NCBI GenBank assembly: GCA_032358255.1
Contig: JAULBX010000004.1
Span: 1-64,000 of the forward strand
Reading direction: 5' to 3'
Source of the DNA: Heterotrichella gracilis
Lineage: Eukaryota; Sar; Xanthophyceae; Tribonematales; Xanthonemataceae
Length of the DNA stretch: 64,000 bases
Numbering within the stretch: the stretch's first letter is position 1; each line of letters starts with the position of its first letter. The position numbers and the translations under genes are program-made. The notes under the pieces were generated by a model, which worked only from the letters and a program-made list of their open reading frames with translations, ran no database searches and was not told the origin of the DNA. Positions 443-60,966 of the stretch are shown one piece after another.

Positions 443-1991
443 GATGAGCTGAACCAGATGATTGCGGCCTGCCAGGAGATGGGCGACGCGGGTTCTGAGT
501 ACCGCCCCCCCATCACCTTTGTGGTTGTGCAGAAGAGGCACCACACGCGATTCTTCCCAACCAGCCCCAACAACGCAGACAGGAGCGGCAACGTGCTGCC
601 AGGTGAAGATTGTTTTATGTTACAATTGGATTATATATTTTATGTTTAAACAAAAGACATTTTCTCAGGAGCGGCAACGTGCTACCGGGGAGCAAGGGGC
701 GGGGTGGGGCGGGCACCATTTGTGTGGTACAATCACCAGCCCTGCTTAGTATTCAATCAATCTTAGGCCTATGCTATGTACTGCGTGATCCTGGCCAGCT
801 GCATGTGTGCACCAAGTGAGGCGTGCACGCAATGCATGGCGCAGATTCCGCAGGCGCCAGCCAGCCCACCCTCCAATGTACCCACCTGCCCTCACTTTGC
901 TGCTTGCCTTGCCGTTCATGCACTGAGCCTCAGCACGCTAGGCAAGCCCTTGTGGTGCGGCGTAGTGCAACGCACGGGCAAGGCAAGCGAGCAAGGGGAG
1001 GCTGGTGTGTGCATTGGATGTTGGGCTTGCTGGCGCTGTCCTGCCGTAAATGACACCCTGTGCGGCGGCCCATCCCATTCGGCAAACGCTTTGGCCCCCA
1101 AAAGGTCACCCTTAGGCATTACCCCTCCATGCACACACATTCCCCTGGCTCCTCCCCAACCCATGCCCTCCACTCACACCACTGTTGACGCCAGCGCATG
1201 CCCCTCCATGGACCCTAAACCTTAAACCCTCCCCCTCATCTCCCGCAGGCACCGTGGTTGACTCCGGCGTGTGCCACCCCACCGAGTTTGACTTCTACTT
1301 GACTGCACACGCCGGCATCCAGGGCCTGTCCCGCCCCGCGCACTACCACGTGCTGTGGGACGAGAACAAGTTCACCGCGGACTCGCTGCAGCTGCTGACG
1401 TACAGGTGGGTGGAGGGTTTAGGGTTGGTGTTAGGGTCTAGGGTCTAGGATTTAGGGTTAGGGTTCACGGCCCACTCGCTGCAGCTGCTGACGTACAAGA
1501 GGGCAGAGGGTCAAGCTTCAGATGAAATAGTTGCCCTCCTTGTGCAGTGAATGCAAGCTGTAAGTGGTAAAAGGGTAAGGAAAAGGGTTTTCCTAGTTAA
1601 GTCAAAAAAGCCGGAGAACCGAGTTCCCAAAGTTGTGTACTCTTTAATCACTGCCCTGCCTGTCCCGTGTGAACTAGAACCCGCCTTTCCTCCCTCGCAG
1701 GCTGTCCTACCTGTACTGCCGCTGCACCTGCTCCTTGTGCTGCCCTCCCTCCCAAATACTAAACCCTAATCCCCCCTTCCCCGCAGGCTGTCCTACCTGT
1801 ACTGCCGCTGCACCCGCTCCGTGTCCTACGTGCCCGCCGCGTACTACGCCCACCTGGCGGCATTCCGCGGGCGCGTCATGTCCGGCGCAGAGGACAGCTC
1901 AGAGTCTGGCTCCACCCGCAGCGGCCAAACGGGCAGGCCCGATGTGGCGCCCATCCACGAGATGCTCAAGAACAGGATGTTCTTTGTGTGA
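443..1991 (+). CDS. AGO: Argonaute protein, C-terminal half of PIWI domain (5' partial)
   Basis: Three in-phase exons, 443-602, 1249-1405 and 1787-1991, encode the last 173 residues of a eukaryotic Argonaute. Argonautes bind small RNAs and silence or slice complementary RNA. Visible family hallmarks are the QKRHHTR block, the [28 protein letters not shown] block and the [20 protein letters not shown] block, ending in the typical short hydrophobic tail M-F-F-V. The histidine in HYHVLWDEN is at the position of the last catalytic (DEDH) residue, so slicer activity is possible, but the D, E and D residues lie outside the window. The exon-3 start at 1787 was chosen over a near-identical AG-exon copy at 1701 because only the later copy reads through the conserved CTRSVSY motif. 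Exon-derived repeats lie in both introns and beyond the stop. Confidence 0.95.
1406..1500 (+). repeat. Telomere-like tract followed by copy of AGO exon 2 end
   Basis: Directly after the exon-2 donor lie degenerate TTTAGGG units (about 1417-1465). Then comes a second copy (about 1465-1499) of the last 35 bases of exon 2, reading CACTCGCTGCAGCTGCTGAC and onward. The copy is intronic and is not needed for the protein. Confidence 0.8.
1697..1786 (+). repeat. Decayed duplicate of AGO exon 3 start plus telomere-like unit
   Basis: Bases 1697-1735 repeat the acceptor and first roughly 35 bases of exon 3 (1783-1825). The two copies are separated by about 45 bases that include CTAAACCCTAA. The first copy diverges after the CTGCACC codons and would lose the CTRSVSY motif. 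Confidence 0.75.
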
Positions 1992-4166: not shown

Positions 4167-7100
4167 TCAAAGCTGTATGGCTGCTCCCTTAGGTTGCGGC
4201 AGCAACTCCCCTGGGGGTACGTCCACCCGCTGGTACCACACCCGCCCCGCACCCCCCACCACCCCCGCACCCCCTCTGGTGCGCAGGCTCAGCGCCTCAG
4301 CCCCCGCCAACCCCGCCAGGCCCTGCCGCGCCGCAGCCACCTCCTCGGCAGAACGCAGGCCACCCACTGTGCGCAACAGCTCCCCATAGTTCTGCAAGGG
4401 GGAAGGGTTTAGGGTTTACGGGGCGGTCCTCACCCAGGGATGGAACCAGCTGTTGAGGGCAGGTGCGGGTATGGCAAGGCCCTGTATTTCCCACGGATGG
4501 GGCTGGTGCGCAGGGTGAGCGATTAACTTGTTTCAAGCCGATGGTGCTGCCCTCCACAAAGCGCCCACTTTGCAGCACTGCACCACCAACCAAGCTGCAG
4601 GCACTTCACAATCAGCTGCAGGCACCAATCGATCTGCAAAGCGCTCCAGGGAACCGACGATTCCAGTGCGTATCCGTGACCTGCCGAAACCCGTTGACAC
4701 CATGCCCATGCCACCCACCCACCCACCCACAGCAGCCCACCCCACCCCTTCCAACACTCACCACCAGCTTGCGGTTCATGGCCTCTCCCGCCCTGGCTAG
4801 CTCCTCTTCCTGTGCCTCCACACCGGGGGCATCACCCGGGGGGAGTCCACCCGCTGCGGCTGCCATTTGGGAGAGGGCTGCTGCGCTGCAGGCACTCGCG
4901 TGGCGCTGATCTGGAATGGGGGTGGAAACAGTGATCATATGGCGATGGTGGACTGATGATGATTGTGTAACGATGATGATCATGTAATAATCATGCAGCG
5001 ATGGATTGTAGTACAGTATTTATATGGTCACATGGTGACAATCAACTGGGTGCATCAGTGGATCCCTGAGCCTTGAATTAAAGAGCCCGTTCCAAATCCA
5101 TGACACTGCAGATTTGGCCAGCCCCCCTTCCAGTAGCTACCCCACCTTAACCTCCACCACCCCCACCTGCCATGCACTCCTCCACCCCCTTGCCCCCAAA
5201 CAGCTCCCCCAACAGGGCTGCATTGGCCTGGTATCGATCACACGCCTCCTCACGATCCTCTACCTCGGCCGCGTCGCCCCACGCGTACACCGCGCGCTGC
5301 CAGGCAGCAACGTGCTCCTGCTCCTGTAGGTGGATGGGGGCATGGGTGGGTGGATGGGATGGGACATCGAGAGAGAAGAGGGGGGGGCAACAAAAAAATT
5401 GTGTCACAAAAACATCCCTTGGTGAGCCAGGCTGCTTAGAAAGCATTTGTATTGAGAAAATCATCATAGCTTGTTAAAAACAATATACGGTAGAAATCAA
5501 GCTGTTCTGGGGGAACATCCCGGTCCACCCCACCCACCCAAGCAATCACCCCACCCTCCATCCCTGCCACCTCGTCCAGCCCCCACCCCCCAAATCCCCA
5601 CTCACCCGCTGGTACGCCACCAGAGTTTCCTTCAGATCACGCAGCTCATCCGGCTTGGGGCGGGGAGGGGGCTGCGGCTGCGCCCATGCCTGTGGCTGCG
5701 GCCGTGGCTGTGGCTGCGGCTGGTGGTGGGTGGTGGTGGGGGCGAGGGGGGGCCTGGCGCCTGGCTGTGGCTGTGGTGGCTGAGCGGCACCTGCTGTGGG
5801 GCGCACATGTGCGTGGGGGTGTTGCGGTGGGGATGGAGGACAGGGGCATGGGGATTGGTGTACATGACGGGGATGGAAGGGCAGCCATTGTCGGCAATAC
5901 CACATCCCTAACAGAGCACCTCACGCATGAAACCCTTACAGACAGCACCCTCATTCACAGCACCCCACATTGGTGCAGTCATATCCACAGTAGCGTTAAA
6001 ACCCTTCGCTACGGCGTAGGGTCCCTGCCATACCTGCTCCACCGCCGCCTGTGGGGTTTAGGGTTTGCGGTCTGGGGCCAGTGGGGTTGGCGCCAGGTGG
6101 GGCGGGGGTGGGTGGCTGCGCTTGGGGGGGCTTGCCACCCACTGCAAGGGGGTTGGGAGGGGGAATGCCGTCAAGGGGAGGAAACTGTGCGTGTGCTGAT
6201 GTGTGTGTGTGGGAGGGTCATTGTGTGATGCTCGTTGTTGCAATATGCACTTGAAAATGTGTGCATAACGTGCATGTGTGCATCACACCCGTTTAAAAAA
6301 GACAAAAACTTGTCGTGATGCATCATTCGCTTCCTCAACATACCCTACTCCTTAGCCCCCTTAGCGTACCCTTATTGTGCATGTTGCACTCATTGGTTTG
6401 CCTTGATGCATGATTGGCCCCTTTCTCTCACCCTAATTCCCAACCCTAAAACCCTTATCGTACCCTTGTTGTGTACGTTACAGTCGTTGTTTGCCTTGAT
6501 GCAGCAGGACTTGCACAGCCCATGGCGGCATCTGCGGGCGGGGAGGAGTGGTGGGGTCGAGTAAGCACAGACGAAACAGTTGCAGTTGATGCAGGCACAG
6601 ACGAAACAGTTCCAATGGATGCACAGGCACAGACGGGACAGTTCCAGAGGATGCATAGGCGGCTGGGCTTTGCCTGCGAGACATACCATGCCCTGCTCAG
6701 GGTTTTGCCGGATTACGGGAAACTGTTCAGGTTTAAGGCTACGGGGAATAAAGGGGACTCTATGGGGTATAGCGTTCAGGGTTTAGGGTTCAATTACGCA
6801 AACGATGAGTCAGTCGCCTCACTTGCCAGGCATTGCAACAACATTCCCCCCTTCCAAAGGTTTGTAGGGTTCATGTTCACTGCTTAGGGTGTAGGGTGTA
6901 GGGTTTCTGTCGCACGCACGATGAGTTGGCTGCCTTCCCACACCCAGGACACGGAGTGGATTGCTTCCTCTCCCCTTTACCCCCCACCCACCCCTGGGCC
7001 CCACCCGGCCCCCCAGGCTGCAGTGGGGGGCGGGCCGACGCACCCCCGCCACCCGGCATGCCCGCTGACGGGGCGCCAGGTGGCGCCCCCACAGCCGATG

Positions 7101-7947
7101 GCGGACCGCCATTGGGCGCCATCCCGGGATGTCCATTCGGCATGGCTGCTGACGGGGCGCCAGGTGGCATCGCCGCAGCGGTCGGTGCGTCCGGGGGCGC
7201 CACTCCATTGCCTGCAGCCGTCCACCATTGGTGGGGTTGGCCCTGGACTAGGGTTTGGGCTAGGGCTTGCGGCCCGGGCTGGCCCTGGGTTAGGGATTGC
7301 ATTAGGGAGTGTGTGAACCCTTGAGGGCCGACCAGCGTGTTTCCATGCGGGTGAGAGGCGCTGAGCTGGGTGGGGAGCTGGTGCTGGTGGGGATGCTGCG
7401 CCGCTGACATTGGCATTGCCTGCCCGGGGGTAGTGCCCGACAGCATTTGCTGTGCAGGGCCGGGGGCGGATGCTATACCCTGGGATGATGCCAGGAAACT
7501 GGTGAAATCCATTGCCTGTCCCTGGAGAGGTGTCGCGAATCCCTGTGAGGGTTGTGCCAAGCCCTGGGAAGATGTCGCAAAACCCTGGGAAGGGTTTGGG
7601 AGGCCCTGGGATGCCGACGGGTGCGCCTGGGGCTGGGTGGGGTGTGGGGCATGGCGCTGGGATGCGGTGGTGAATGCGGCAAATGACGAGGGGCTGGAGG
7701 GGTGGGGGGTGGGGGGTGGGGGCCCCACGGGTGGCTGTGGGGGGTGGCGCTGGGGGGGGTGGTGCTGGTGCCAGGCCTGTAGGTGCTGGTGCATCTGGGG
7801 GGGGAAGGAGTGGGGGGTGGGGTATAGCAGGGGGGCGGAGGGGGCTGACGAATTTGTCCCCGGAATTGGCTGGTTGGTGGGTGGGGGTTGGCCAGGGACG
7901 GTGCCTGCTGCCGCCCCATACTGTGAAGGCAGCATGGCTGCCTGCAT
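4167..7947 (-). CDS. Pro/Gln-rich protein with SHI-type cysteine finger and helical C-terminus
   Basis: Seven phase-consistent exons (minus strand: 7947-6920, 6531-6464, 6141-6034, 5793-5606, 5323-5167, 4910-4762, 4391-4167) give a 640-aa protein. Residues 1 to about 325 are Pro/Gln/Gly/His-rich low complexity with repeated S-Q-G-(F/L) units. The exon 1/2 junction assembles a cysteine array C-x2-C-x7-C-x4-C-x2-C-C-x6-C followed by x2-H. This is the spacing of the SHI/STY/LRP1 (DUF702) RING-like finger of plants, where it acts in transcription factors. A second Pro-rich stretch follows. Exons 4-7 then encode charged helical segments (D-E-L-R-D-L-K-E-T-L, E-Q-E-H-V-A-A-W-Q-R-A and so on). The finger and low-complexity context suggest a nuclear regulator, which is inference. 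I do not recognise the C-terminal domain. The start is the first ATG of the open frame, and an upstream exon is not excluded. Confidence 0.7.
6034..6141 (-). repeat. Telomere-like unit inside a predicted exon
   Basis: The plus strand carries GGGTTTAGGGTTTGCGG at about 6053-6069 inside predicted exon 3 of the finger-protein gene. On the coding strand the unit reads as the residues Q-T-L-N-P. The exon is supported by in-phase GT and AG borders on both sides, so a telomere-like insertion may have been recruited as protein-coding sequence. Confidence 0.5.
6364..6500 (-). repeat. Exon-end duplicate of the finger exon separated by CCCTAA-like tract
   Basis: Bases 6366-6402 repeat, with changes, the end of the cysteine-finger exon and its donor (6458-6500; both carry TACCCTT(A/G)TTGTG and TTTGCCTTGATGCA). 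Between them lies CCCTAATTCCCAACCCTAAA. Confidence 0.75.
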
Positions 7948-9859
7948 GGTGGTGGTGGTGGGGGTGGGGGTGAGGCAGGGGCAGGGTGGTGATGGGTGCG
8001 TGCAGTTGTGGTGGGTGGATGGGCGGAGCTGTGGTGAGTGGGTTGTGCGTCACTGTGTGCAGTTGCTAGGGGCTGTTTAGGTGTGCACAAGGTAGGTGTT
8101 GCTTCGTGAACCCAAAAGGGAAAAGCAGGCAAAGAGAACCAAAGATAAAACACAGGCTTGCCCACGCCCTTGCTGCCAAACAACACGTGCTGCTGCTGTC
8201 ACCAGGTTGCATGCATGCATATAGCGAAACAGTGCTCCAGCCCAAATGTCGTTACTTTGCCCTCCGTTTCGCCACACGTCGTCAAAAAAAGCCACCGCAG
8301 CAGACCACGTGCGTTGCGGATACACACAGCATACCTGAGACAGCCGCCCCGAGGGTTGGGTCGCTCACTCTCCTCCTCCACCCACAGGGCGTGTCACCTC
8401 ACACATCCTCCTGGCCATGGCCCCTCTGATCTGAGGCACTAGGGTGGTTTTAGCCAAGCTTTCGCACGGTGCGCGCCCTGTACCAACCTGGTATGCTGTG
8501 TAGATTGCTGGTTTGCACACCTCGTTTGTCCTTGTGGAGGTGTTACGCAGGCAGTACTTGGAAATAGCCTGGACCCAGGGTCTAAGGGGATTGATTACAA
8601 GGTGGGTGCAGATAGCAAGAAAGGCGCAGGTTGTCTCAAGACAGGCGCGAGTCGCGTTGGCTAGCCCGCACACGAAGGGGGTGTCGCATCACGGCGCATA
8701 TACATATTCAAAACCGCGCCAGGCTGTTTCAGACCGCGGTACCGTTTTGTCAGGGTGACTTGCAAGCAGATTAGGTGGAAGGGCAGCGGCTGGAAGTGCA
8801 GAGCGGTGTCAGTGTGACGAGGGACTACGTTGGAACCTTCAAAAGCACTTCGCCCACAAGGCTTACGAGGGTCATGGTTGGTGAGAAAACCCTTAGGGTT
8901 TCTACAAGCTGGGTAGGGTACCAAAGTAGCCCTTGCATTCAAGTTGCAAGTGGCAGCACAAACCACAGACACGTCTTTGTCGCTGACAACACAACCAAGC
9001 TGCAACAGTCACTTCTTACCAGCACTGTGCACGGCAGTATATGGTCCAAGGGAATACCTGGTACCATGAACCGTACTGTACCACCCAACAGGAACTGCAG
9101 TTCAAGCAGCTGATTACAGCTGTCCAGGTGCTGTGCAAATGTTCCCATAACGTACTGTAAAAGCACATACCCTAGGATAGAAACCCCGCCGCCCAGATTC
9201 CTACCATAGCCCCTGATGGTCCTACCAAACCTTTCCCGCGGGGATCAAGTTGGATTGCAGTTTAGAATTCAATTTGCAAAGGAGGAACAATTATAATTAA
9301 TTTGCTATTTCCTTGTCCACAGTCCGAAATCTCTGGTGACCGCTGGGCCCCAAAATGCCAAACTGTCCCACATGCGGCCAACACTTCTGTCGGTGACGGC
9401 ATTCCAGCCAGCCAATCCAGAAACCATGCACCAATCCGCAAATACATAGCCAGAAGGACACAGCCATCACAACTGAGACGCTGAGAACCAGCCCCAACGT
9501 CTCGCCCCTTGCATGCCAGGGGTGCTACCGCTGGCCGGGTCTGGGAGGGGAGGAACCCATCCTGCAATCAGGGTGAGCGCACCTCAGCATCATCGTAACA
9601 ATGACGTATGAAGATTGATAATAATCGATCAAAACACACCCAGGCAAAAAAGATATACCCCCTGTGCAGCCTAGCCCACCCCATCACACATGTATCCCAT
9701 ATTCAGGGACCCTCATCGCCTTCGAAGGTCAAAGTTTGCCAGAGTGATGTGCACCTGGCTGCACCAGCGCCACAATCTAATCCCCACTGGCATGCCAACC
9801 GTTAGCATGAACATCGCGCCTGCCATTACCCCTTTCTCCCTCCCCCATCGCTCCAGCCC
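7948..9859. other. Intergenic region without recognised gene
   Basis: This lies upstream of the finger-protein gene and downstream of NTH1. I see no family resemblance, no consistent exon chain and no RNA gene. The first hundred bases hold a G-rich run (plus strand) that is probably the 5' leader of the finger-protein gene. The NTH1 3' untranslated region should occupy the right end. Confidence 0.5.
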
Positions 9860-16600: not shown

Positions 16601-17522
16601 CAGCCAGGTGGCAGCGCCTGGCGAGGCGAATGGGCTTGCATCACTGGGTGCTGGTGGTGCGAAGGCATCTGCCGGGACCACGCCTTTCACATTTGGGGGT
16701 GCTCAGCCGAGGTCTGGGGCAGCAACAACCAGTTCTTTCACGTTTGGAGGCGCCCAGTTGACAGCCGCGTCAGGATCAGGCCAGCCTGCAGGCAGCACGG
16801 GGGCCACCACATCATTCTCGTTTAATGCCTCGCAGCCCCCTCCGGCATCATCAACAGGGGCGGCACCATTCAGCTTTGGCGCATCCCAGCCCAGCGCGGT
16901 AACCGCACCTGCATCTTCTGCAGCGCCCACGCAGCCCTTCACATTCGGGAATGCCCAGCCCGCCAGCAAGCTGCCAGGTGGCGCCAGCGCAACGGGAGCT
17001 GCGCAGGCGGCCGCCGCACCCTCCACCCAGAGCACGCCAGCGTTTTCCTTTGGCGGGGGCGCAGCTCCAGGCAGCTCGGCTGCGCCTGCAGCTCCATTTG
17101 CCTTTGGGGCCACGCCAGAGGCCAACGGTACCCCAGCATTTGGGGGTTTTGGCGCGCCGCCCACAAGCACTCCGGCGTTTGGCGCAGCGTCATCCAACGG
17201 GACTGCCTTTGCTGGGTTTGGCGCCGCGCAGCCCGCAGCGGGCGCCGCGCCTGCATTTGGAGCCCCACAAGCAGGTCGCAATGCCCCGTTTGCCTTTGGT
17301 GGCGCCCCCCAGCCTGCGGCGGCGGGCACTGGTGGGGGGTTCACGTTTGGCGGTGCGGCAGGGGGCGCGGCGGGGCAGGCGTTTGGCGGGTTTGGTGGCG
17401 GTGGCGGTGCCCCCACCCTGCAGTTCCAGGCTGGCACTCCGGCAGCAGGGGGTTTTGCGCTGGGGGCTGGGAATGCGGTGCGGCGGACAGTCAAGGCACG
17501 GGGCCGAGGGGGGCGGCGGTGA
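13658..17522 (+). CDS. FG-repeat nucleoporin, NUP1/NUP136 (Nup153-type) candidate
   Basis: Six exons (13658-13689, 14095-14342, 14663-14806, 15092-15283, 15676-15774, 16051-17522) give 728 aa with every phase matching. The N-terminal third is basic, with K/R clusters such as S-N-K-R-K and S-T-K-R-R-R-I-N-L. The last exon is Ala/Ser/Thr/Pro-rich and carries at least 15 FG motifs of the F-x-F-G and G-F-G types. It ends in a basic tail, A-V-R-R-T-V-K-A-R-G-R-G-G-R-R. FG repeats form the permeability barrier and karyopherin docking sites of nuclear pores. A basic N-terminus, long FG domain and basic C-terminus fit the nuclear-basket nucleoporins (plant NUP1/NUP136, animal Nup153). There is no Nup98 autoproteolytic domain. 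ATG 13658 has a good context (GCCATGGG). Assignment to NUP1/136 rests on layout, not on a diagnostic domain. Confidence 0.85.
14061..14082. repeat. Telomere-like CCCTAAAA tract before nucleoporin exon 2
   Basis: CGAACCCTAAAACCCTAAAA lies 15 bases upstream of the exon-2 acceptor. Here the units are octamer-like (CCCTAAAA), the Chlamydomonas form, whereas most tracts in this window are heptamers. Confidence 0.85.
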
Positions 17523-18729: not shown

Positions 18730-21222
18730 ATGACTGTGGACGACAGCCTGCGCCTCAGGTGGGCGGTGGACATCGCGCAGTGGCGCTCCACCGCCGCCGA
18801 GTGGGCGTTTCTCCTGGACCTGGTGGGCCCCGCCGAGGGCGAAGCAGTGGACAAGTTTTCCAAGGAGGATGACAGGAAACGAGCCCTGGTGAGCAGGCTA
18901 TTGGCTCGACAGTGCTGCAGCGTGGTGCTGGGCATACCGTACGCCAGCGTGCACATAAAGCGCACCAAGGGCAAGAAGCCCTTCCTGGCCAACAAGGGCG
19001 TGGACAAGAAAAGGGCGCCAAACTTCAACTTCAGCATCTCCCACGAGGTACTGGAAGGCCACAGTCATATGCATGCATAGGGCCTGGGTCTGCAGCACCT
19101 GGTATTCACCTCTGGTATGCAACCTGCTCCCTTATTTATCCACCTGCACCCCAACCAACAACAAGAAGCACTGTGTGCACTCCCGCCACGGCTCGCCAAC
19201 GCAGCAGCCAACTTCTGGTTTCAATAGGCATGCCACCCTTTTCAGCGCGGTCTTACAGCCTGCTGACCCCCCCTTGTGTGTGCAGGGCGACTACGTGGTT
19301 GCTGCCACTGAGCCTGTGTGCCTGTGTGGGGTGGACGTGGCTGCACCCAACCAGGTCAGGGTGGTGAAGGGGCGGACGCTGGAGGACTTCTTCAGCAGCT
19401 TTACGAGGTCCTTCACCGCACACGAGGTACAAAGAAATGGAAATGGGGAAGGAAGGATCAAACATGGGGAACCAGCTTCACGCTGCCTGTCCTTGACACA
19501 TACATGTAGTTGGCGTATGGTAGGGTTTAGGGTTCCTCAGGTTAGGGTCGAGGGTCGAGGGGTCCCTATTCTTCATCCCAACTGTCCTGATACTAAGTGA
19601 TGTGCACGTGTTTGTTTGTTGCAGTGGGAGGTGATCCGCGCTGCTGGCCCCAGTGAGAAGGCCATGTCGGACGCCTTCCAGCGCAACTGGAGCCTCAAGG
19701 AGGTGGGTACCCTTAACCCTTAACCCTACATTTTAGGGCATGCGCATCACCACTGCACACCTATGGCAGCGTTATATGCAGGGTGTTGATGACTGCATTG
19801 CGACTGTGCATTGATTGCTAATTGAGAGACAATGTACCATTTTTGGTTATGCAATTGACCATCACACCACGTTTGGCCTTGGCCTAGAAATTGTAACTTA
19901 AGATACCCTAGACCCTCTTGTGTTGTGCCTCTCCTGCAGGCCTTTGTGAAGGCGCGTGGTGATGGGCTTGCCTTTGACCTGGGCACCGCAGAGTTCAGGT
20001 TTGAGGGGGGCCCGTGGTCAGATTGCGCCACCGTCACTGTGCTAGGGGAGCACAAGAAGAGGTAAAGCTTAGGGGCACATTCTTCGCTGTTGAGTGCGTA
20101 ATTTGGGGGCCAGCATGGAGGACAGGTCTGCATTCGTTAGCTCAGATTTGCCCCTAGGCGGCGGTAATGACCGTGAAAAGGCAGATGATGTATGGCTACT
20201 GCCCATGCTATGCACCCCATGTGGCAACCATCACATGCCCTAGTGCCGACCGGCATCAGAGGTATACTAATACACTAACGTAGCCCCTTTTAGCAGATTA
20301 GTATACCCCTGCCGGAATGCACATGGCCCTGGCAGGGCACATGACCAATTCCTGCCTGGCACTCGGGAACATAAGGTTTCACCCCCTGTGCAGGTGGAAG
20401 TTCTTCCTGCAGCGCCTGGGCGACTGCCACTGGGTGTCGGTGGCGCGGGGTCCACCTGAGGCCATGATCGACGCAAACGGGGTAGGCACTCGCACCCTGT
20501 ACAGGCCCTTGCGCAGCTGGGGTATACCATCCATGTACATGCTGCCTGTACATGTCATGCCACACCCCCATGCCCTCGTTGCTGCGACCATGGGCAGTGC
20601 GTGCTTGGTGGCAGGTGCACAGATGGCCCCTTGCATGGGGCCTTTGGGCATTGGTTGGATCCCCATGCATGCCCATGAAGCAGGCCTTATCTCCAGTGAT
20701 GCATGCCTGATCCACACACCCAGAGGTGCATGCCTGATCCCAATCCCCAGTGATGCCACCGCCTGATCCCCATCCCCATGTTCCCGACAGGACTTCAAGC
20801 GCAGCCTTCAGCGGCCCGCCATCAGGGAAGCAGACCTGCAGGTAGGAGGGCAAGGGGGTTGTGTAGGCTTAGCTGGTGCCTGTTTAACGACCCGTTTCAT
20901 GTCTACCCCGCCCCAATCTTCTTACCACCCCTGTGCCGCCCCCTGCTGAAAGTACTGTGCGATTCCCCAACCCAAAACCCGAAACACTTCTGCCGTTCCC
21001 TGCAGGAGGCTCTGTCTGCACCCAACCCTCAACCTCAAACCCTAAACCCTGGGCCGCCCTTGCTGGGCGGTCCGTCTGATCTATCAACCCTAAACCCTGT
21101 GACTTCCCCTGCAGGAGGCTCTGTGTGCCCCCAACCCCCCCTTCTCCCTGGTGTCCATCGTTGACCTGGTGCCTGAGGACAGGCGACAGGCATTCCAGGC
21201 GGCAGGCGGGGACCTGCTGTGA
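18730..21222 (+). CDS. 4'-phosphopantetheinyl transferase, Sfp/AASDHPPT type
   Basis: Seven exons (18730-19047, 19286-19426, 19625-19702, 19940-20061, 20394-20481, 20791-20841, 21115-21222) encode 301 aa, with all phases matching. The enzyme transfers phosphopantetheine from CoA to a conserved serine of carrier proteins. Diagnostic motifs are F-S-I-S-H-E near residue 100, G-V-D-V (Mg-binding Asp) near 120 and W-S-L-K-E-A-F-V-K-A (the W-x3-K-E-A-x2-K signature) near 175. The length suits the eukaryotic cytosolic AASDHPPT group. For exon 7 the second of two nearly identical AG-GAGGCTCTGT starts was used (21115 rather than 21007) because only it reads to the stop. CAGCT-rich repeats and an exon-end copy follow the stop. 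Confidence 0.93.
20998..21128 (+). repeat. Duplicated exon-7 start of PPTase around telomere-like tracts
   Basis: The stretch CTGCAGGAGGCTCTGT and neighbours occurs at 21003-21018 and again at 21109-21124. The DNA between contains CTCAAACCCTAAACCCT and CAACCCTAAACCCT. Only the second copy continues as coding sequence. Confidence 0.85.
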
Positions 21223-21887
21223 GACAAACTCAGATCACCTGCACAGCTCAGCAGCTCAGCAGCTCAACTCAGCAACTCAGCTCATTAACAGGGGCGCGGC
21301 ACACCAGGCAGCAGGCAGGGAGCTCACTGTGAGAAAACGTCTCAGCTCAGCAGCTCAGCTCGGGAGCTCAGCTCAATGGCCTGACGCGCACTCTGATGGG
21401 CACGCTTTCGTATGCACAGCATTTGGTGGTAAACCCTGTTGAAGGCAGCAGTTGAAGACAAGACCTTGCCTTGTATGAATGAATGAACACGAAAAAGGAA
21501 CCAATTTACAATATTACTCAGTTGACAGTCCAACTAGAGGCAGAATAACAGAACAGAAGCCTGAATCTGGCCAGAATGGCGGGAAATGCGTCCCCGTTTG
21601 TAATATTATTCCAGTAAAAATATTCAAACTTTTTAAAAGCTGTTGCAACATCGTTGATAGAGCTAACGCTTTCTATTGCAGAGCAAAGAGCTGTTGGTAG
21701 CCAACTGCCCGTCAGCGAAACCCCCTGCTATACCCCCTCGAAAACGCTTGCTGTTGCTCTACACCACGACCCCTATCACTGGTGTGGGCAATAAGGAGGT
21801 TCACGTCGGCTTTTGAAAGAGGTTCAGAGACATACCGAAAGCCACATGGCCACGCCAAGCGCAGTTCAATAGACATAGATACGCACC
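21223..21887. other. Intergenic region with CAGCT repeats, PPTase / FAS2
   Basis: Bases 21236-21375 contain many copies of CAGCTCAG and relatives, plus a decayed copy (about 21290-21345) of the PPTase last-exon end including a CTGTGAGA stop-like sequence. The remaining 500 bases hold no recognised gene and include the FAS2 promoter. Confidence 0.6.
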
Positions 21888-24800
21888 ATGAGGGCCAAGA
21901 CGCTTCAGATACGGTGGCACGACAAGGAGGCCGTCTACTCCCTTGACTTCCACCCATCGGGGTTGTTGGCAACAGGCGGAGGGGACAAAACCATAAAGCT
22001 GTGGGAGGTGCGCTGAGCATACAACGTGCTATTTGCAACCCATTACTGCCTTTGCAGCAACAAAGGGCTTTCTCAGACCACACATTCCGTTGGCTGCCCT
22101 GCAGCGGTGATTGGTGCTGTGTTCATGTGCCTGCTATATACACACGATGCAACGGGTTGCAGGTCAAGTGTTCAGAGGATGGGGAGCCATCAGCGAGGCC
22201 CCTGGCAACCCTTGAGGGCCACAGCTGCACCGTGAATGCCGTCCGCTTCTCACCCACAGGTGAACATCTGCACCTCACCATCCTCCAAGGGAGTGGACGC
22301 TCCTGCAGTGCATGGTGGCATTGATCACCACCCCCACCTGGTTGCACCACTCTGTGAACCACCTCAACCTCTCAAAGGGGTTTATTGATTGAACTAGCTC
22401 CAGTTCAAATGCCCCATAGCTGCCCCACCGCCATTCACTAGCACACTCTGTTCCCCCCCCCGTGCACCCACTCCCTCAATCGGCCCCCACCCACCCACCC
22501 ACCCACCTCCCCACAGGCCAGCAGCTCGCCTCCGCGGGTGACAAGGGCGAGCTGCTGCTGTGGAAGGAGGCGGCGCCCGGCACAGCAGCCCCCGCCTTTG
22601 GCAGCGAGGAGCCCGTGGGCGAAGTGCAGTGGCAGCGTTGCAACGTCCTCAGGTGACAACGCCTCGCCAGCAATAGCACCAGTAACAGATACCTGCCTGT
22701 ACTCCCGTCAGTACGCAGCCAGAGTGTCGGTGGCAGTCGTGCTTGCACGCTTTGCGCCACTCAGCACTGTGTAAACCGAGGTGGACCTCGGGTGTAGTGA
22801 CGGTTGCTTGTTGCTGCACTGCAGGGGCTGCATGGGATACAGATCTACAAACCAGCAATGCTCCCCAACTGGCATATGCACCAAGGCACAGATTAATGCC
22901 CACCTCAACCCTAAGCCCTAAGCCCTAAACCCTCCCGCAGGGGCCACCTGGACGACGTCCAAGACATCAGCTGGGCCCCCGACGGCGCCGGCCTAGTATC
23001 CGGCTCGGTTGACAACGGTGTGATTGTGTGGGACACAGATGCCACTGGGTCCAACAAGGGCGTTGTGCGGTGGCAGGACCACAAGCACTTTGTCCAGGGG
23101 GTGGCCTGGGACCCCTCGGGGGGGCATGTCGTCACGCAGAGCACAGACAGGACCGTCAAGTGAGTGGGGAGGGAAAGGGGGGTAGTGTGTTAGAGCGTAG
23201 GCAGACCGTTGAGTGGGTGTGGTTTGGTGGGGCAGTAGGGCTGGTGGGTAGGGTGTTGCATGTGATTGTAGAGTGCTGTGCGGTGGCAGGACCACAAGCA
23301 CTTTGTGCAGGGGGTGGCCTGGGACCCCTCGGGGGGGCATGTAGTCACGCAGAGCACTGACAGGACTGTAAAGTGAGTGTGGGTGGGTGTGTGCGGGGGG
23401 GGCGCGCTGGTGGGGGGGTTGGGGGGGCGTAGGCAGGATCGTCAAGTGGGCGTGGTGGGTGGTGGGGATAAGGGCTGGTGGGAGGCGTGGGTCGCGTGTG
23501 ATTGTAGGGTGTTGCTTCTAATCTGTACATGGCTATTGTAGTTGTAAACGTGTATTGCATGCGTTCCGGCAGTACAGCTAGATTAGCAATCATAGTGTGC
23601 GATGGCTCACTAAGGCGCTGCCACCTGGCGCCTCCCGCAGAGTGTATGCGCCACGCGTGGCTGTGGGTGGCAAGAAGGGCGGCTCCAAGGCCCTCCTCAG
23701 CTGCGTGGCGGCCAAGGACTTCCTGTGCGCACATGTGCTCAGCAGGAGGGCCATGCCTGTGGCAGGTGCGGCGGCATGTTTAGGGTTTAGGGTTAGGGTA
23801 CACCCTCCTGGGCGCCACGTGGCAGCGCCTCAGTGAGCCGTGCTCAGCAGGAGGGCCATGCCGATGGCAGGTGCGGCCAAGTCAGGACAGTGTGGGGGCG
23901 TAGGCCGGTGCTTGGTTTCAAAGCCCCAATTTTTATTGTACGTGTGGTTGTCACGGGGTAGGGTGTCAACAATTCACAGCTGGAATGCACACACTGCAAT
24001 TCAGCAGCATTTGGGGTATTTATGGAGACACATGGAGCAGTGCTCCGTATATTGCATCGCAGTTGTGCTCAACTCCCCCCCCGCCCCCCCTGCTGTGCAG
24101 AGGCCGCGCCCACCCCCGATGGCCGCAAGACTCCCTCCTCCAAGCACTTCCTGTTCCATGATGAGTCCATGGCTGGATTCTTCAGGAGGCTGGAGTGGTC
24201 CCCGGATGGTAATCTACAGCAATGAACCCTGAACCCCAAACCCTTCAACTTTATTGGCCCAAACGTATTCGAGGTGAATGGTTTATGGGGCTTAGGGCTT
24301 CTTCAGGAGGCTGAAGTGGTCACCAGATGGTGCGGGGCTGCATCGGTACAATCCATGGCATTTCATATATAACGGTGACACTGACTTGGTTGTATATGCA
24401 TGGGCAAGTGCGGATGCGCCTCAAAGGGCAACTGCACCCAGTCCTTGCATGAGGAAATGATTGCATTGAGGTAGATGGGGGGCATGTAGACTGCCGTTGC
24501 ATACTTTGGGTTGCAAGACCACATATGCTGCAATGGCGCAAATGGGGTTCTATAGTTAGGGGTAAGGGTTTTATTCAGACCCTAAAGCGGTGCTGGTTGC
24601 CCCACATCCTCCCCCTCTGCAGGCTCCCTCCTTGCCATCCCCGCCGGCACCTTCAAGTCCTCCCCTGACAGCCCCCACTGTAACACCACCTACCTGTACC
24701 ACACGGGACACTGGGCGCAGCCGCTCATGCACCTGCCGGGGCCCTCAAGGGATGGGGTGCGTGGGTGGGCTGGGGGGGTGGGTGTGGGTGCATGGCCACC

Positions 24801-27800
24801 AGGGTGCTGCAAGTGTGTTGCTCTCCGATGACGGCTGGGAATACCTATCTGTTCATTTTTATTGCTCTTGGGATACGATGTTGCCTTGCATGGCAGCCTG
24901 GTTTAACAAAATGCCCTTGCATGCGGTGGGATGGCGGCGTGGCCTGCCAGGACCAGGCGCATGGGGGAGGGGGCAGGCAAGGGAGGCGCAGGCCCTGAGC
25001 GCGCATGGGGCTTGGGAGCGCCCCCTGTGTGGCCCTGGAGGGCGCAGGCGGGTGGTGGAGGGCCCTGTAAATGATCAAAGCGCCCACACATTGCATGCCT
25101 GATGCAGGGTGTTACGGTAAAAGGCCGTCCCCTCATGCAGCAATCTATCCACCTGGCCACGCAAATTGGCACATCCACTGTCAATCCTAAACCTCAAACC
25201 CTAAACCTGTCCGCATACGCCCTCCAACCGGATGTATTGAAGCTGTCCCCCACACTGCAGGCCACCATGGCTGTCCGGTGGTGCCCCGTGCTGTTTGCGC
25301 CTGATCCCCCACCCGGCGATGAGGGGGCCCCTGCCCCCACCACCCCCGGCACCCCCCCTCCTCCCATCGCCCTGCCCTACCGCATGGTGCTGGCGGTGGC
25401 TACACTGGACAGCGTATTCCTGTATGACACGCAGGTGGGAAAACACCCTACTAAAACCCTAAACCCTAACCATCAACTGCCCTACCGTATGGTGCTGGCG
25501 ATGGCTACACTGGACAGCGTCTCCCTGTATGACACACGGGTGGGTCCCTGCTTAGTTACAGTTAGCGAGCTTTGTAGCGCGACTTCACGAGCACCAAGGC
25601 CATTTAATTGGCCCTTCAGGTATAGTCGGTGGGATTAGTACCCGCTCGACTGCTCACCTGGGAATGACGTAGGGTCACTTTCTGGATGGGTTGCTTAGCT
25701 AAAGGGTGCACAGCTTCGCGGCTGATGCCTCGTCCCCAAAATTACGTGTCTCGCGTAGGGCTTTACCTGTTTTTACATGCATCCCAGCAATGCCCAGATT
25801 AGCAGTCGCAATTGGAAATATACCCATGCGGCGCCAAGCAAGTTGAACTGTATGCATTTGGTCATCTTGCACAATCTGAGGTCCTGCTGCTTGAGATCAA
25901 CTGTTGCACCTTCTGTTTCAACCAAGCAATTGATGCACGCATGCACGCATTCGATCTGAGCACTTTCCTCCCCTTGCCGTGCAGTTCCCCACCCCCCTTG
26001 CGGTGATCGGCGCCCTGCACCTGGCGGAGATCACTGACCTGGCGTGGTCATGTGACGGGCGCATGCTGGCAGTGTCGTCAAGGGATGGATTCTGCAGGTG
26101 GGTGTGGGGGGTGGAGATGGTAACGCATGCTGGCACACCACGCATTGCAGGCATGGCGTCACATCCCGCCTGGAGGGTTCAATGTAACAAAGCTGTATGC
26201 TGCCTGCCGTGGGTCATGATCAGGGTAGGCAAAGGAGGTGGTATTACCCTCCTCGCCTCTATGATTACCCTCCTCAACTCTATGCCCCGCCCTGTCTTAC
26301 ACCTCTTACACTCTTCCCCCCGCTCCCGCAGCATCGCCACGTTTGAGGAGGGGGAGCTAGGTGAACCCCTGCCACTGGCCAGCATCCCCACACACATCGC
26401 CAGCAGGGTGGCGGTGGCGGCCAAGCGGGTGGCCCCCCGCACACCACCAAAGGCTAAGCCCAAGCACACCAAAGCCAAGGTAACACTCCCCTAATGCATC
26501 GCTAGGAATATCGCAGTTTACGTGGTTGCCATGGTGGGGAAGGGGGGGGCACATGTGGATCCTCAGACGGGGCGGACTGCGGGCTTGCTCTCGGCTGGGG
26601 GTCTACACGACCCTTCATTAGGGTTCCCTCTGCTGTCCACGACCTAGTTGCAGTTTATGGGGAGACATGCCATTACATTTGCTTGGAGACGTAAGTAGCT
26701 AGGAAACACAACCTGTGTGTTCATTCATGCCCTACCCCTCGGTACTCTCATGTTGAACAGTGCGATGTTGGTGGCGCAGGGTCCAAATGCCTGCAAGGGC
26801 AGGTGCCAGAGGGTTGCCTAAGCTAAAGCAATGTTGTGTGCGCAGGTGGATGTAGCACCAGGCGACCACGCAGCGCCCCTTGCCACCCCACCCGCAGGGG
26901 AGGCGCCAGCTGGCAGCGCCCCCACCCCCCCCATTGTCATCGACATCACCAACACCCCCGAGCGCCAAGGCGCCGGCTCCGCGAGGCGCATCCAGCCCGC
27001 GCCCCTCCCCGGCCCAGCCACCACCGACAAAACGCGCATGCAGCCTGTCGCCATCGGCGCCAGCTCAGCGCCAGGTTCTCAGCCGGGCGACAAGAAGCGC
27101 ATCCAGCCTGTGCCGATGGCCCCCGGCGCAGCGCCGGGGGGGGCCGGCGGGGTGGGTGGGGAGCGGAAACGCATCCAGCCTGTTGCCCTGGAGGCAGCAC
27201 CAGCACCAACATCAGCACCAGCAGCGCTGCCGGCTGCAGCACCCACCCCCCAGGCGGGTGCAGCCACGAAGCGGCTCCAGCCCACCTGCCTGGATGGTGG
27301 GGGGCCGGCAGCGGCGGCGGTGGCGGCGGGCCAGAAGAAACGCATCCAGCCGGTCGCCATCAGCGCCAGCTCAGCGCCAGGTCAGCAGGAAGCCAATGGC
27401 ACCGTAGCCAATGGTGGTGCAGCAATTACTGGTGCCGCCACTGCCAAGCGCGTCACGCCGACTCCCATGGCTGGGGGTGTGGGTGATTCTGCTGGAACCA
27501 TCTCGGGTGTGCGTGATGCAGCGCAAGGAGAGGGCGTGGGTGGCAGCCCTGGGGCCCAGCAAGGGGGTGATGGCACGAGTGGGTCGGGGAAGAAGCGCGT
27601 GAGCCCCACGCCATGTGCCACAGGTAAGCGCCACTGGCCATTCTATCACAGCTCCTTGAGCATGCAAGTGTACGCATGTTTCACATGAAAGGCACCTGTA
27701 AAATATAGTTTTCCTGTCTTGGCGGACCACATGCAGGTGCATGTTCACCCATATCTACATTCACAATTGGCCGGTGTCATGCCAGTGATATGCCCACATG

Positions 27801-29159: not shown

Positions 29160-32100
29160 TCAGTCCTGCCCTGTGCTGCCCTCCCTATGCGGGAACATGC
29201 GCGCCACCTGAGGGTACACCACCTCCAGCAGGTGGCGCCGGTGGTGGTGGTGGTGATGGTGGTGGTTGGGCGTCACATCCTCTTCTATCTCGCCACCAGC
29301 GTCGCCACCCACAGCCTGGACCGCAGGCGTGTCCCCCACAGCCTCAGATGTAATATCCCCCCCTGGCTGCGGTTCCTGGCCAGCGGCTGGCAATGCTCCC
29401 GCCCCCTCCCCGCCCTCCACTGCCTTTTCCACCTTGACACCCTCCCCTACTGTCCCCTCTGCTTTTTCCAACTTGGAGACCTCCGCCACTGTCCCCTCTG
29501 CCTTATCCACATAGGTGTGCTCCACTACCCCCTCCTTTGCTGTGTCCACCTTGGCGCCCTCCCCTACCGCCCCCACCTCTGTCGTTTCCACCTTGGCACC
29601 CTCCCCTCCTGTCCCCTCTGTCTGTTCTACCTTGATGCCCTTCCCTCCCACCCCCTCCGTCACCTCTGCCTTGACGCCCTCCCCTCCCACCCCCTCCGTC
29701 GCCTCTGCCTTGACACCCTCCCCTCCCGGCTCCCCTGCCTTTTCCACCTTGACACCCTCCCCTCCCGCCTCCCCTGTCCTTTCCACCTTGAGGCCCTCCC
29801 GAATCGCCTCCCCTGCCTTTTCCACCTTTGCGCCCTCCACTGCTTTTTCCACCTTGGCCCCCTCCGCCACCCGCAGGAAGGTGGGCTTTGTGAACACCCC
29901 GCTGATGTGCCAGCCCGTGTAGTTTGCCACCGCGGCATCCAGCACCGGCCACATAAGGTTGGGGTCAACGTGCAGGCCAGAACCTGCAGCAATTTGGTGG
30001 ACCATCAGCTCACAAATACAATGAATAACAATATTATCAGTTCACAAAGACAATACATAACAATATTACAAGATGCAGGAGTAAGTGGACCATTACTTAA
30101 TGATAACAGTCAATAACATACATGTTCATAAGATAAAATAAGTACAGTATGAATCAAGGGTAGGTGATTTAGCTGCATTGACATCATCGGGCATACATTG
30201 TACAAGCAGTGCCAAGACAAAGCTTGCTGGCAGGCATGCTGAATACGGTGGCGTTCACGGCGCAGGGTAGGGTTTCGACCTCAGCAGTGCGCACCTACGT
30301 TGAAGATGAACTCCTCGCACAGCAGGTGGTCCAGCCAGAACATGGGATCATGGAATAGGGTTTAGGGTTTCAATCTAAGCAGTGCGCACCTATGTTGAAA
30401 ATGAACTCCTCGCACAGCAGGTGGTCCAGCCAGAACATGCCATCGGGGCACCTGTTGTGCTCCCACACCACCAGCTTCTGCTCCTCGCTCATCCGCTGGT
30501 ACTGCTGGTTGTCGTACACAGCCGAGGGCTTGATGTGCACGTGGTCCTCCCACAGGTTCACCATCAGGGACAGGGACAGCTGGGGAGGCGGGGGTGGGGA
30601 GTGGGTCAGTTGCATGCATACAAAATAATTGGGGTCTTGCTACTTACAATTTCTTGCTACAATTTTGTTTTTGATATGTTTAACGCGCACGTGGTCATCC
30701 ACAGGATCACCGTCAAAGACTTCATGACATGTGGTGCACACACACTCCATGCAGCTGGAGCAACGCAGCGCATGCATGCCATTGCACAGTCCCAAACGAG
30801 TCGCCGCTCCCCCCTCCCCTCCTTCCCATCCTGCTCCAACCACCACCAGCTGCTACAAATACCCACCCTCCCCCCCCCCTTCCCCCCAACTCACCTCGTT
30901 TGGCAGGTCCCGCACCAGCTCCTGCGCCGGGTACTGGATATTTTGATAGTCCCCCCGCCGTGTGGTCTGTATTGCCGCCGCCCCCCTGGGCAGGAACACC
31001 AGATTGGCCATTGGCTTGCCGAAGTTCCACACCACGATGGATGCCTGCGCGTATGCCTTTGCCTGGTCCCTGAAGGAAAGGTCCTCCAGGTAGAGCAGGC
31101 GCACTGCCACGTTGGCGCGCGAGTACCTGCGGGGTGGTTGGGAATACTTGGTTTAGGGTTTAGGTTGAATACAGCAGGCGCACAGACACATTGGCGCGCG
31201 AGTACCTGCGGGGGGGGAGTTTGAAGCGTGGTTTAGGGTCAAGCAGTCACATGGCGTATACAGGGTTGTGGTTCAAATCCCCGGCCAACACCCACAGCCT
31301 GACAACCAGTTCATGTGTCAGGCATGTTGAGCATCTCCGTTGCAAGTTGAAGGACAAGGGTTTTGTTTCCCACTTGATGGGTGTGTCATGCACGAGCTTC
31401 TCTATCTTGTGTATAATTAGTGGTCTAGGGTTTTGGGTTTTGTGTGCCCACCTGATTGGCGTGTCGTGCATGAGCTCCTCAATGTTGAGTATCTTGCCCC
31501 CTGAGGAATACTTGCGGTCCACGTACAGGATGACCAGCGGGGACAGAGGAGGGTTCTCAAGCAGGGGCAGGCTGAGGCAGTCGCTCAGGCGCTGACGCCA
31601 CCCGCCCATGATCTCGTGGCTGGGCTGCTTGCGCAGGTCCCTGCGGGGTGAGGTGGGGTGGGGATGTGAATGCAGGTAGTGCTGTGTGTGTTGGGGAGGG
31701 GGTGGGGATAGTGGTGGGTGGGCAAGGCAAGTGCGGAAATGCCATGGCAATGGGTGGGTGGGGGAGTGGGTGGCCACAGCAGTGGGTGGGCCCATGCAAC
31801 ACGAAGCTTGCGCCTGCAGGTGGCATGAATGGCCGCAGTCCGTGCCAGTATGCATGCCATGGGCGGTGGCTGCCAAGACTCCTGGGCCCTGCACCTCACG
31901 CCATTTCCGAGATACCCAACCCACACCGCCAAAACCCAGCTACCGCTGCCCTGAGCCACAGCCTTCACATACGGGTTCCTGGGGTTTTGTCCAACTACTA
32001 AAAGTTGATGCGCATGCACTATGGGTGGCAGTGTCAAGGGTTTAGGGTTTGCGCACGCACCATGGGTGGCAGTGGTCGTGGTCCGACCTGCACTCCCTGC

Positions 32101-37900: not shown

Positions 37901-40314
37901 AATGTGCGCTGCAGCCTGTGCGCAGCAGCAGCACAAGGGGGCGGAGTTGGGGTTCACCTGCTGCAGCGACACCTCTGCCTGCAAGCCTGCGCTCAGGTTC
38001 TCGAGCTTGGTGGCCAGGCTGTTCCTCCCCTTGCGCCCCGCGGCCACATCCCTGGCCACCTGCGCACCACCCCATGCAACCTCAATGACCACCTCCAAGA
38101 TATACAGGCACCCGCCAGGGGGAAATCCAAGAATTCATCCAGATGGCAGCTTCAACGGTGCACCCATTGCCCATTCACCCATCCACCACCCACCCACCCC
38201 ATCCCTCACTACCCACCACCCTAGCCAGGCCATGAGCGCCGCAGTCACATGAGGGTCCAAACACACCCCTCCTCAAAACACCCACACCACCAGTCGCACC
38301 ACCACCACTTCCACCAGCCACCCACCTCCTCCCAGAACTCGGCACCTAGCGCCTCCGGCTGCGGGCTGGTGTCCCCAGCAAGGGCTGCAAGGTGGTCGAC
38401 AGGGAGGGATACGATGGGGCCATCCGCAGGGGGGTCGTAGGCGGGGGGTTCTCCTCCCTGCGAGGGTGGGAGGGGCCAAATGTCAAGGCATGGGTGTGCA
38501 GCCATGGGGCAACAGCGGGGCTCACGTGACCCACCAGGACCTTGCACAGTGCAGGTTTAAATATTGATTCAAACCTTGACACAGCTGCTTGTGGAAGGCT
38601 GCCTGTACCGCCTTTTCTTGCAATTGCAGATGTACGTGCAGACGTAGGTGTCAAGGACTTTAGTAACTTGACACCTGTAGACTTTCATGTTACAAGGGTA
38701 CATTGTGGATTGACTGCAACTGTTCCCCCGCCCCGCACCTGCAGCTCGAAACCCTCGGCTAGGTTCTCATCAAACTGCTCCATGAGGTTGCCCAGCGCAG
38801 TCTTCCACCAGTCGCCAATCTCGCGCGTGGCGGTGGCAAGCTCGGACTTGAGGTCGTACACGCGCTTGCGCAGCGCCTGGTTCTCGCACCGCTTGTCCTG
38901 CAGGGTTTGGGGTTTAACGGTCAGGGTTTGGGGTTTAGGGTCAAGGGCTTGCGCAGGCGCCTGGTTCTCGCATTACTGGGGTTTAAGGGTCTGGGTTTGG
39001 GGTTTAGGGTCAAGGGCCTGCGCAGCGCCTGGTTCTCGTACCGCTTGTCCTGCCAGGGTTTGGGGTTTAGGGTTTATGACTGCAAGCGTGATTATGATTA
39101 TGACTGGTCCCACACCCTAAAGCAAAACCAGGGGAGAACCAGGTGTGTACAAGGCTGACTCTGAAGCGTGCGCACGCGGCAGCGCAGAGCATCGTTGGCT
39201 GGAATGTATGCAACTCACCACCGCATTAGCTACCCGAAAACGCAAATACAGAAAGTTAAAAAGTAAGCAATGCATGAATATTTCTGTCAGGTTTTGAAAT
39301 GAACAGTTTTCCAAAACACCCAGCATACCTGCAGCCATTGCGACGCGGCCTCGCACACCTCCCTGGCCTCAGCGCACACCCGCTCCTTTTCTGCCTGGTC
39401 CCGCTCAGCCTGGCGCGCCATCTCCAAACGCTCGCGCGAAACCTCCTCCAGGCGCCGCTGAAGGCGCAGCTGCTGCTTGTCTACCTGGGAAAATGTATGT
39501 TTGGTCGAGGTGAGTGGATGCAATGAACGGGAATTGGCAACGGGTTACAATACCAAAGATTGGTGATAAACAGCGCAGGCATTATTGCTGGGACACGTGT
39601 AACCAACTAACAAACCACCTGGTGCATGCAGCCCTTGCTGCGCTTCAGCTGCTCCCCGCAGGCACCTTTTGTTTTAGGGTTTAGGGTATAAGGGTTTAGG
39701 GTGCCCACCTGGCGTTTAAGCTGGTGCACGCATCCCTCGCTGCGCTTCAGTTGCTCCCGCAGGCACCAGTTGTCCTGTCGCAGCTGCTGGAGCAGCGCCG
39801 AGGTGTCCCCAGGGGCCGCGATGGGGACGGGGACAAGGGGGAGGCTGGAGGGCGAGGGCGTGGGGAGGGAGGTGGGTGGCGAGGGGTGCGCGGGGTGGCG
39901 TGGGGGCCGCGGCGGTCCCGGGGAGGGCTGCAATGCGATCCCCATGGAGATGGGGAGGTTGAGGTTGGAGTATGGTAGGGTGGCTGCTGCTGGCTTGTTT
40001 TTGCCGTTGAAGGGTAATTCCGGTGCTGCAGGGGGTGGGAGGCCGCGGCTGGTGGGTGGCTGGGTGCAGGTGAGGGGGGGTGGGCTGGTGGGGGGTGTGG
40101 CCTGGTGGAGGATGGGGATGGCGCCGCTGCAGACGGTGTTGGTGCCGTTGGGGGTGGTTATTGGGGGCAGGAAGGGGGGGCTGATAAAGTCGCCTTCCTC
40201 GGGGGAGGATGCGCCTGGGGGTGTGGCCACTTTCTGCTTTTTACAGCTGGGCTCTGCATCGGGCTGTGGGGAGCGAGGCGGGGAGGACCCTGTAGGGTAT
40301 TGGTCGTCCTCCAT
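34986..40314 (-). CDS. SAPS-domain protein, PP6 regulatory-subunit-like
   Basis: Nine exons (40314-39709, 39484-39329, 38897-38739, 38457-38326, about 38059-37955, 37686-37552, 37204-36424, 36044-35905, 35603-34986) give about 943 aa. Residues 1 to about 175 are Pro-rich with a basic K-K-Q-K. Residues 175-305 are predicted coiled coil (L-L-Q-Q-L-R-Q-D-N, then a long E/R/Q heptad stretch in exon 2). The later exons resemble the SAPS helical repeat: A-C-D-V-L-T-A-S-H-L-L-A-S-L-L; T-L-A-L-A-R-L-V-E-S-L-L-x-T-H-Q-P-P-V; S-P-S-N-N-I-L-H-C-C-V-A-R-V-V. SAPS proteins target Sit4/PP6 phosphatase. The N-terminal coiled coil and a roughly 170-residue Gly/Pro insertion in exon 7 are atypical. The exon-5 acceptor is uncertain (38059 or 38092, same phase). 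Two fused gene predictions cannot be excluded, but every junction keeps phase. Confidence 0.6.
38885..39060 (-). repeat. SAPS-gene exon 3 start, three copies separated by TTTAGGG-like tracts
   Basis: GCGCAGCGCCTGGTTCTCGC and neighbours occur in the exon (38865-38897) and again at 38950-38976 and 39018-39055. Each copy is separated by repeated GGTTTGGGGTTTAGGGTCA-type sequence. Confidence 0.92.
39620..39770 (-). repeat. SAPS-gene exon 1 end duplicated around TTTAGGG tract
   Basis: The segment CTGCGCTTCAG(C/T)TGCTCCC with CGCAGGCACC at 39637-39666 repeats exon-1 sequence at 39740-39769. The spacer (39670-39701) contains TTTTAGGGTTTAGGG and AAGGGTTTAGGG. Confidence 0.92.

Positions 40315-55884: not shown

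Positions 55885-60966
<5,082 letters not shown>

Follow-up and report, generated by a model that had tools for sequence, protein, structure and literature searches.

The window analysed here, the first 64 kb (64,000 nucleotides) of contig JAULBX010000004.1 in the genome assembly of the xanthophycean alga Heterotrichella gracilis (GCA_032358255.1; 68.5 Mb in 903 contigs), carries genes in which short tracts of a telomere repeat, TTTAGGG/CCCTAAA, lie near exon-intron borders between two direct copies of an exon end. Pfam searches on the products of four gene models returned Piwi (an AGO gene), CAF1B (the gene for CAF-1 p60, FAS2), GT61 (a GT61-like gene) and MTHFR. The repeat is the organism's own telomere repeat: TTTAGGG arrays start no more than 10 bases from the start of 7 contigs among the matches listed, and the same repeat occurs as short tracts at internal sites, including within genes. 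Together with 200 kb of contig 2 (C2), which was taken as the first in the list and is therefore a non-random choice, the window forms a sample of 264 kb (0.4% of the assembly), to which 15 further tract loci were added. Genes were called with a small splice-aware model trained on the same 264 kb without RNA, which gave 42 genes and 382 introns with the donor consensus CAG/GTGNGT and the acceptor consensus YGCAG/G. The models have flaws: some genes are merged (4167-12438 is seemingly one such case), and both copies of a duplicate are sometimes called exons. A wrong-strand model at 16022-27054 overlies the CAF-1 gene; it is still inside the counts on 292 introns and those on tract placement and density, flanking duplicates, exon-end pairs, mismatch and retained splice dinucleotides, and it supplies 2 of the 39 rows of exon-end copies.

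The original prediction had named 12 places in the window where an exon end with its splice border, a spacer with telomere units and a second, imperfect copy of the exon end follow one another. Smith-Waterman alignment recovered the direct duplicate at all 12 of them (scores 40-130). The two other parts of the description applied to most places. At least one telomere 7-mer lies in the spacer in 11/12, a number that varies with the alignment end, and is missing from the remaining one; a splice border lies in or beside the duplicate in 9/12 according to the gene models, and the pair at 32009-32074 is wholly intronic. An acceptor-like CAG was read by eye in both copies at 20998-21137 and 31091-31216. 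The spacer at 24178-24331 holds a single telomere 7-mer within a degenerate stretch, and at 38885-39060 the telomere-like stretch lies inside the repeated unit itself.

We compared the 60 exon bases adjoining each border with the adjacent intron, at a score of at least 36, in 292 of the 382 introns (introns shorter than 40 bp or with a flanking exon shorter than 30 bp were excluded). An intronic copy of the exon end was found at 22/283 donors and 15/283 acceptors after removal of the wrong-strand model (22/292 and 17/292 before it), whereas each of four controls, in which exon ends were compared with reverse-complemented or other introns, gave 0/292. Exon stretches 60-120 bp from the border were copied in the intron in only 1/200 and 0/200 cases. 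The duplicates are mostly 25-100 bp long, with one copy exonic and the other intronic, and the spacer contains a telomere 7-mer in 16 of the 39 rows of exon-end copies. At three loci (L017, L018 and L021), three or four copies are separated by telomere-like DNA, which points to repeated events or to expansion at the same place. The copying is local. A search of the whole assembly with one CAF-1 exon end gave two matches, both local, and none dispersed, and a search of the sample with 39 exon ends gave six non-local matches, all from one query with telomere-like DNA. Introner elements, that is, a dispersed family of similar introns, were rejected on the same grounds, the copies being local in the sample and, for one exon end, assembly-wide; the spacers were not searched as a family. 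These results confirmed the observation and extended it beyond the window.

The tracts themselves are placed far from evenly. The pattern TTTAGGGTTTAGGG has 5,629 matches in the assembly, compared with 5 for the pattern read backwards. The density of nine-letter telomere tracts is 7.5 per 10 kb in introns, 2.9 in intergenic DNA and 0.58 in exons, compared with 1.11, 0.87 and 0.14 for the backwards-pattern control. For 75 tracts in introns of 100-1500 bp, the position profile is U-shaped, with 17, 6, 4, 4, 3, 5, 4, 6, 10 and 16 tracts in successive bins from donor to acceptor. Flanking duplicates follow the same trend: they were found at 32/56 tracts lying no further than 60 bp from a splice border (the 32 tracts represent 30 separate places) and at 8/14 tracts 60-120 bp away, but at only 2/23 beyond 120 bp, 3/20 intergenic tracts and 1/4 exonic tracts. 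Cross-paired flanks gave a duplicate at the same score in 21/3000 cases. The comparison of exon borders with random positions, which the original prediction had proposed, supports it, as random positions, true duplicates included, gave 110/1450 in introns, 80/830 in exons and 27/720 in intergenic DNA. Expressed as density, duplicate-flanked tracts number 7.87, 2.51 and 0.37 per 10 kb of intron in the three distance classes (the last value comes from 2 events) and 0.44 per 10 kb of intergenic DNA, whereas tracts without duplicates number 5.90, 1.89 and 3.94 in the same intron classes. The border excess therefore consists mostly of the duplicate class. At borders, duplicate-flanked tracts reach roughly 20 times their density in intron interiors, a stronger concentration than had been stated. 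Among the 15 extra tract loci, duplicates were present in 9, including the weak one at L026.

Pattern counts over the whole assembly agree with the border excess for donors and weakly for acceptors. The donor pattern AGGTGNGT is followed by GGTTTAGGG 437 times at a distance of 2-22 bases versus 136 times at 102-122 bases, and by CCCTAAACC 165 versus 83 times at the same distances. Upstream of GCAGG, CCCTAAACCCT occurs 1,403 times at 2-22 bases and 1,018 times at 102-122 bases, only a 1.4-fold difference; the same acceptor pattern with the ending GGACG occurs 88 times, an unfair control because GGACG is much rarer. These counts show that tracts lie near donor-like letters and do not show duplicates. 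A paired donor-plus-tract arrangement was found for CCCTAAACC in 15/94 near and 2/78 far matches, and for GGTTTAGGG in 16/95 near and 12/95 far matches, among the matches listed and with the paired units themselves yielding far matches.

Table 1. Exon-end duplicates and associated telomere tracts in the 64-kb window.
Position	Strand	Feature	Basis
1370..1511	+	AGO (Piwi) exon end and donor 1370-1418, telomere-like spacer, copy 1463-1511	Smith-Waterman, gene model, Pfam Piwi
1689..1824	+	AGO acceptor and exon start 1775-1824, upstream copy 1689-1738, CCCTAA spacer; not on the list of the original prediction	
6358..6503	-	Donor-side exon-end duplicate, TTTTAGGG spacer	Smith-Waterman, gene model
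20998..21137	+	Acceptor-like duplicate, CCCTAAA spacer; no gene model on this strand, border by eye	
23064..23379	+	CAF-1 p60 (FAS2) exon end and donor, duplicated without telomere units	Gene model, Pfam CAF1B
23735..23877	+	CAF-1 p60 donor-side duplicate, TTTAGGG spacer	Smith-Waterman, gene model
24178..24331	+	CAF-1 p60 donor-side duplicate, degenerate telomere-like spacer	Smith-Waterman, gene model
25372..25544	+	CAF-1 p60 donor-side duplicate, CCCTAAA spacer; two copies only in the assembly	Smith-Waterman, gene model, assembly look-up
30268..30439	-	GT61-like donor-side duplicate	Smith-Waterman, gene model, Pfam GT61
31091..31239	-	GT61-like acceptor-side duplicate, TTTAGGG between copies; border by eye, model calls both copies exons	
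31358..31492	-	GT61-like donor-side duplicate	Smith-Waterman, gene model
32009..32074	-	Telomere tract and duplicate wholly inside an intron, no border	
38864..39076	-	Acceptor-side repeated unit, telomere-like DNA within the unit	Gene model
39619..39773	-	Donor-side duplicate; modelled donor 12 bases beyond the duplicate, adjoining the tract	Smith-Waterman, gene model
58174..58381	+	MTHFR gene model, exon-end duplicate without telomere units	Gene model, Pfam MTHFR

Several further repeats were seen in the sample. In the CAF-1 p60 gene, an exon end and the following intron stand in tandem at 23064-23511 without telomere units (identity 0.89 over 210 aligned bases). At C2:121119-121394 (L043), a 98-base exon end is re-copied, again without telomere units, in a gene that by eye resembles adenylate kinase. 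In the GT61-like gene, the final exon of the model contains an array of about 11 copies of a 39-base unit, or 13 codons (29403-29828). A 123-base unit forms two tandem copies with 83% matches at 53164-53405 of the window, in a stretch without a gene model, and a gene model at C2:164284-171823 (L047-L048) resembles, by eye, two tandem LysR-type regulators.

The two copies of an exon end have different fates. The copies mismatch at 8.6% of exonic and 12.9% of intronic positions, near the ratio 1.3t:2t expected with constraint on one exon copy alone. By codon position the mismatch is 0.103, 0.082 and 0.162, and a frame-breaking indel is present in 17 of the 39 rows. Intronic copies thus decay like neutral DNA, without coding constraint, and a functional second exon as a general rule was ruled out by the codon-position mismatch and the frame-breaking indels. 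The splice dinucleotide is retained in 23/29 copies, and the copy offset is a multiple of three in only 8/29. Decoy splice sites, which had been predicted together with the creation of introns, therefore exist in the sequence. Creation itself found no such backing: among 369 introns searched for a donor in one copy and an acceptor at the corresponding position of its partner, there was no clean case. Three sources accounted for the high scores in this search: introns modelled between the copies of a duplicate, a tandem exon, and a pair of near cases (C2:148455-148621 and C2:60993-61146) that missed by about 8 and 15 bases.

The junctions and the orientation of the tracts bear on how the duplicates arose. 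Telomere letters in register with the tract extend at least 4 letters into the duplicate in 18 of 35 primary cases, where chance would give about 1.2% per junction; 5 of these 18 overlap by 4-6 letters, a length that priming or microhomology would give. In the sense direction, CCCTAAA outnumbers TTTAGGG by 23 to 4 among tracts no more than 60 bp from an acceptor and by 19 to 10 among those equally close to a donor. CCCTAAA near acceptors could supply pyrimidines and a branch-point-like CTAAAC.

The best reading of these data, which we hold tentatively, is that the duplicates are scars of staggered breaks whose ends were filled in and joined through a patch of telomere repeats. An exonic nick in one strand and an intronic nick close to the border in the other would leave long single-stranded ends. 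One end would often gain telomere repeats, most simply through telomerase, and the overhangs would be made double-stranded during end joining, so that the roughly 20-100 bp between the nicks would flank the patch as two copies. Survival of the gene would rest on the copy still joined to the remaining exon, whose exon end and splice site are intact; the second would be left to decay in the intron. The original prediction had suggested such breaks, and the local duplicates on both sides of the tract and the neutral decay of the intronic copy support them. The evidence for telomere healing is mixed, and several observations weigh against this scheme. The in-register overlap is at least 7 letters in 13 of the 18 cases, which may reflect an older tract or a tandem unit, and in 17 of the 35 primary cases neither junction has a 4-letter overlap; with overlaps divided in this way (5, 13 and 17 of 35), telomerase is likely but not shown. 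If telomerase were primed at the G-rich donor side, tracts there should read TTTAGGG in the sense direction; the donor counts given above contradict this simple expectation. In addition, telomere 7-mers are absent from the spacer of 18 of the 31 exon-end pairs, so that the bias belongs to the duplications and not to the patch alone, and telomerase is unnecessary for duplication.

Template switching would dispense with the staggered break altogether: a strand made in replication or repair, with telomere-like letters at its end, would anneal to a short CCCT or GGGT match at the intron edge and recopy the exon end. We judge this possible, if rather less plausible than staggered breaks. It accords with the local copying, with several copies and similar spacers at one site, and with in-register telomere letters (at least 4) at the 3-prime junction of the patch too (7/35). 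However, the same exon bias is seen in 18/23 pairs without telomere units (exon-exon and intergenic pairs set aside), which means that telomere-like seeds are not the whole cause. An artefact of assembly, in which haplotypes or reads were joined in tandem, is very improbable, because the copies differ by 0-23% with a codon-position bias, and because in the printed examples other than tandem arrays the telomere DNA lies between the copies and not after the second. It is also improbable that tracts and copies are retained as splicing aids, with CCCTAAAC giving pyrimidines and a branch-point-like CTAAAC near acceptors and the copies serving as decoy or alternative sites. The CCCTAAA excess near acceptors and the retained splice dinucleotides would suit such a role, but the copies accrue indels that break the frame as well as changes at the first and second codon positions, few of their offsets are multiples of three, and the acceptor-side orientation may be simple purging of G-rich inserts.

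The border excess might instead reflect survivorship and visibility: insertion would be even, survivors in coding DNA would have to span borders, and border pairs would stay recognisable for longer as one copy is under selection. This would account for the scarcity of tracts in exons relative to introns and for the rarity of copies from exon DNA lying 60-120 bp inside the border. We therefore ran a simulation in which duplicates with tracts were placed uniformly and non-viable ones were discarded; the survivors then decayed under constraint on a single exon copy, close to the decay measured above, and were scored with the detector used on the real data. Border pairs made up 29-30% of the detected pairs in the simulation but 31/37 in the observed set (13/14 with telomere units and 18/23 without), a tally that omits 11 exon-exon and 4 intergenic pairs and in which the ungapped alignment itself spans the border in 24 of the 31. 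On average, a fraction of 0.37-0.40 of a simulated duplicate lay in the intron, whereas the observed value was 0.19. Unless indels degrade introns much faster than assumed, this discrepancy indicates a preference for exon ends, whether telomere units are present or not. Selection explains why scars in coding DNA must span borders, not the border excess, and survivorship as the main cause is unlikely. A broader and more doubtful suggestion is that in this lineage exon ends are hot spots of break repair, where breaks coupled to transcription or splicing would be repaired repeatedly by exon-end copying, often with telomere repeats, so that telomerase and local copying would keep lengthening introns at the edges and supply decoy splice sites.

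Telomere insertion at breaks is known, and a genome with such scars clustered where exons meet introns would connect break repair and telomerase with the growth of introns. They would be a natural record of break sites in genes and a source of duplicated splice sites, and they offer a testable system for whether transcription or splicing makes exon ends fragile. In the titles, abstract openings and passages of open-access papers that were consulted, no account was found of telomere tracts accompanied by duplicated exon ends at splice borders. In mammals, telomere repeats are inserted at breaks with in-register letters (Nergadze et al., PMC2246262), and our tracts resemble these short interstitial telomeric sequences in being short, in avoiding exons, in sometimes having a duplicated target and perhaps in their in-register junction letters. 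Target duplication is minor there, at 6/130 insertions in rodents, 4/25 in primates and, in the horse, 3/66 simple cases and another 2 accompanied by further changes; in humans, the intronic share (31%) was called compatible with random insertion (PMC2246262, PMC7215372). Minor duplication with random placement fits our tracts away from borders, where duplicates were few both deep in introns and between genes, but fails at the borders, where more than half of the tracts are flanked by duplicates and these cluster. Plant telo boxes, TTTAGGG-type motifs across genes for which telomerase acting on free 3-prime ends was proposed, are likewise short and spread through genes; in Arabidopsis and rice, however, they are enriched in 5-prime untranslated regions and not in introns overall, and the cited portion does not mention exon-end duplicates (PMC3022908).

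Intron gain by tandem duplication (Rogers 1989 and Hellsten 2011, as told in PMC4974935) shares with our cases a local duplication that includes splice signals; here, in contrast, one copy lies inside the intron, and a donor and an acceptor drawn from two copies are not cleanly seen. Direct repeats around intron borders were also described by Rogers and Bendich (2025, PMC11782384), who compared both borders of an intron; their repeats are 4-30 bp long with a mean of 11.4, whereas ours are mostly 25-100 bp long, consist of an exon copy and an intron copy and often enclose a telomere patch. In mouse cells, Cas9-induced breaks with 3'-overhangs lead to tandem duplications, and repeated cutting adds a second and a third (PMC5730883). 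A duplicated overhang and further rounds at the same site are common to both systems, but the cited portion describes neither a telomere patch nor a preference for splice borders. What differs in Heterotrichella gracilis from the mammalian and Cas9 precedents is the high share of duplications and their position at splice borders.

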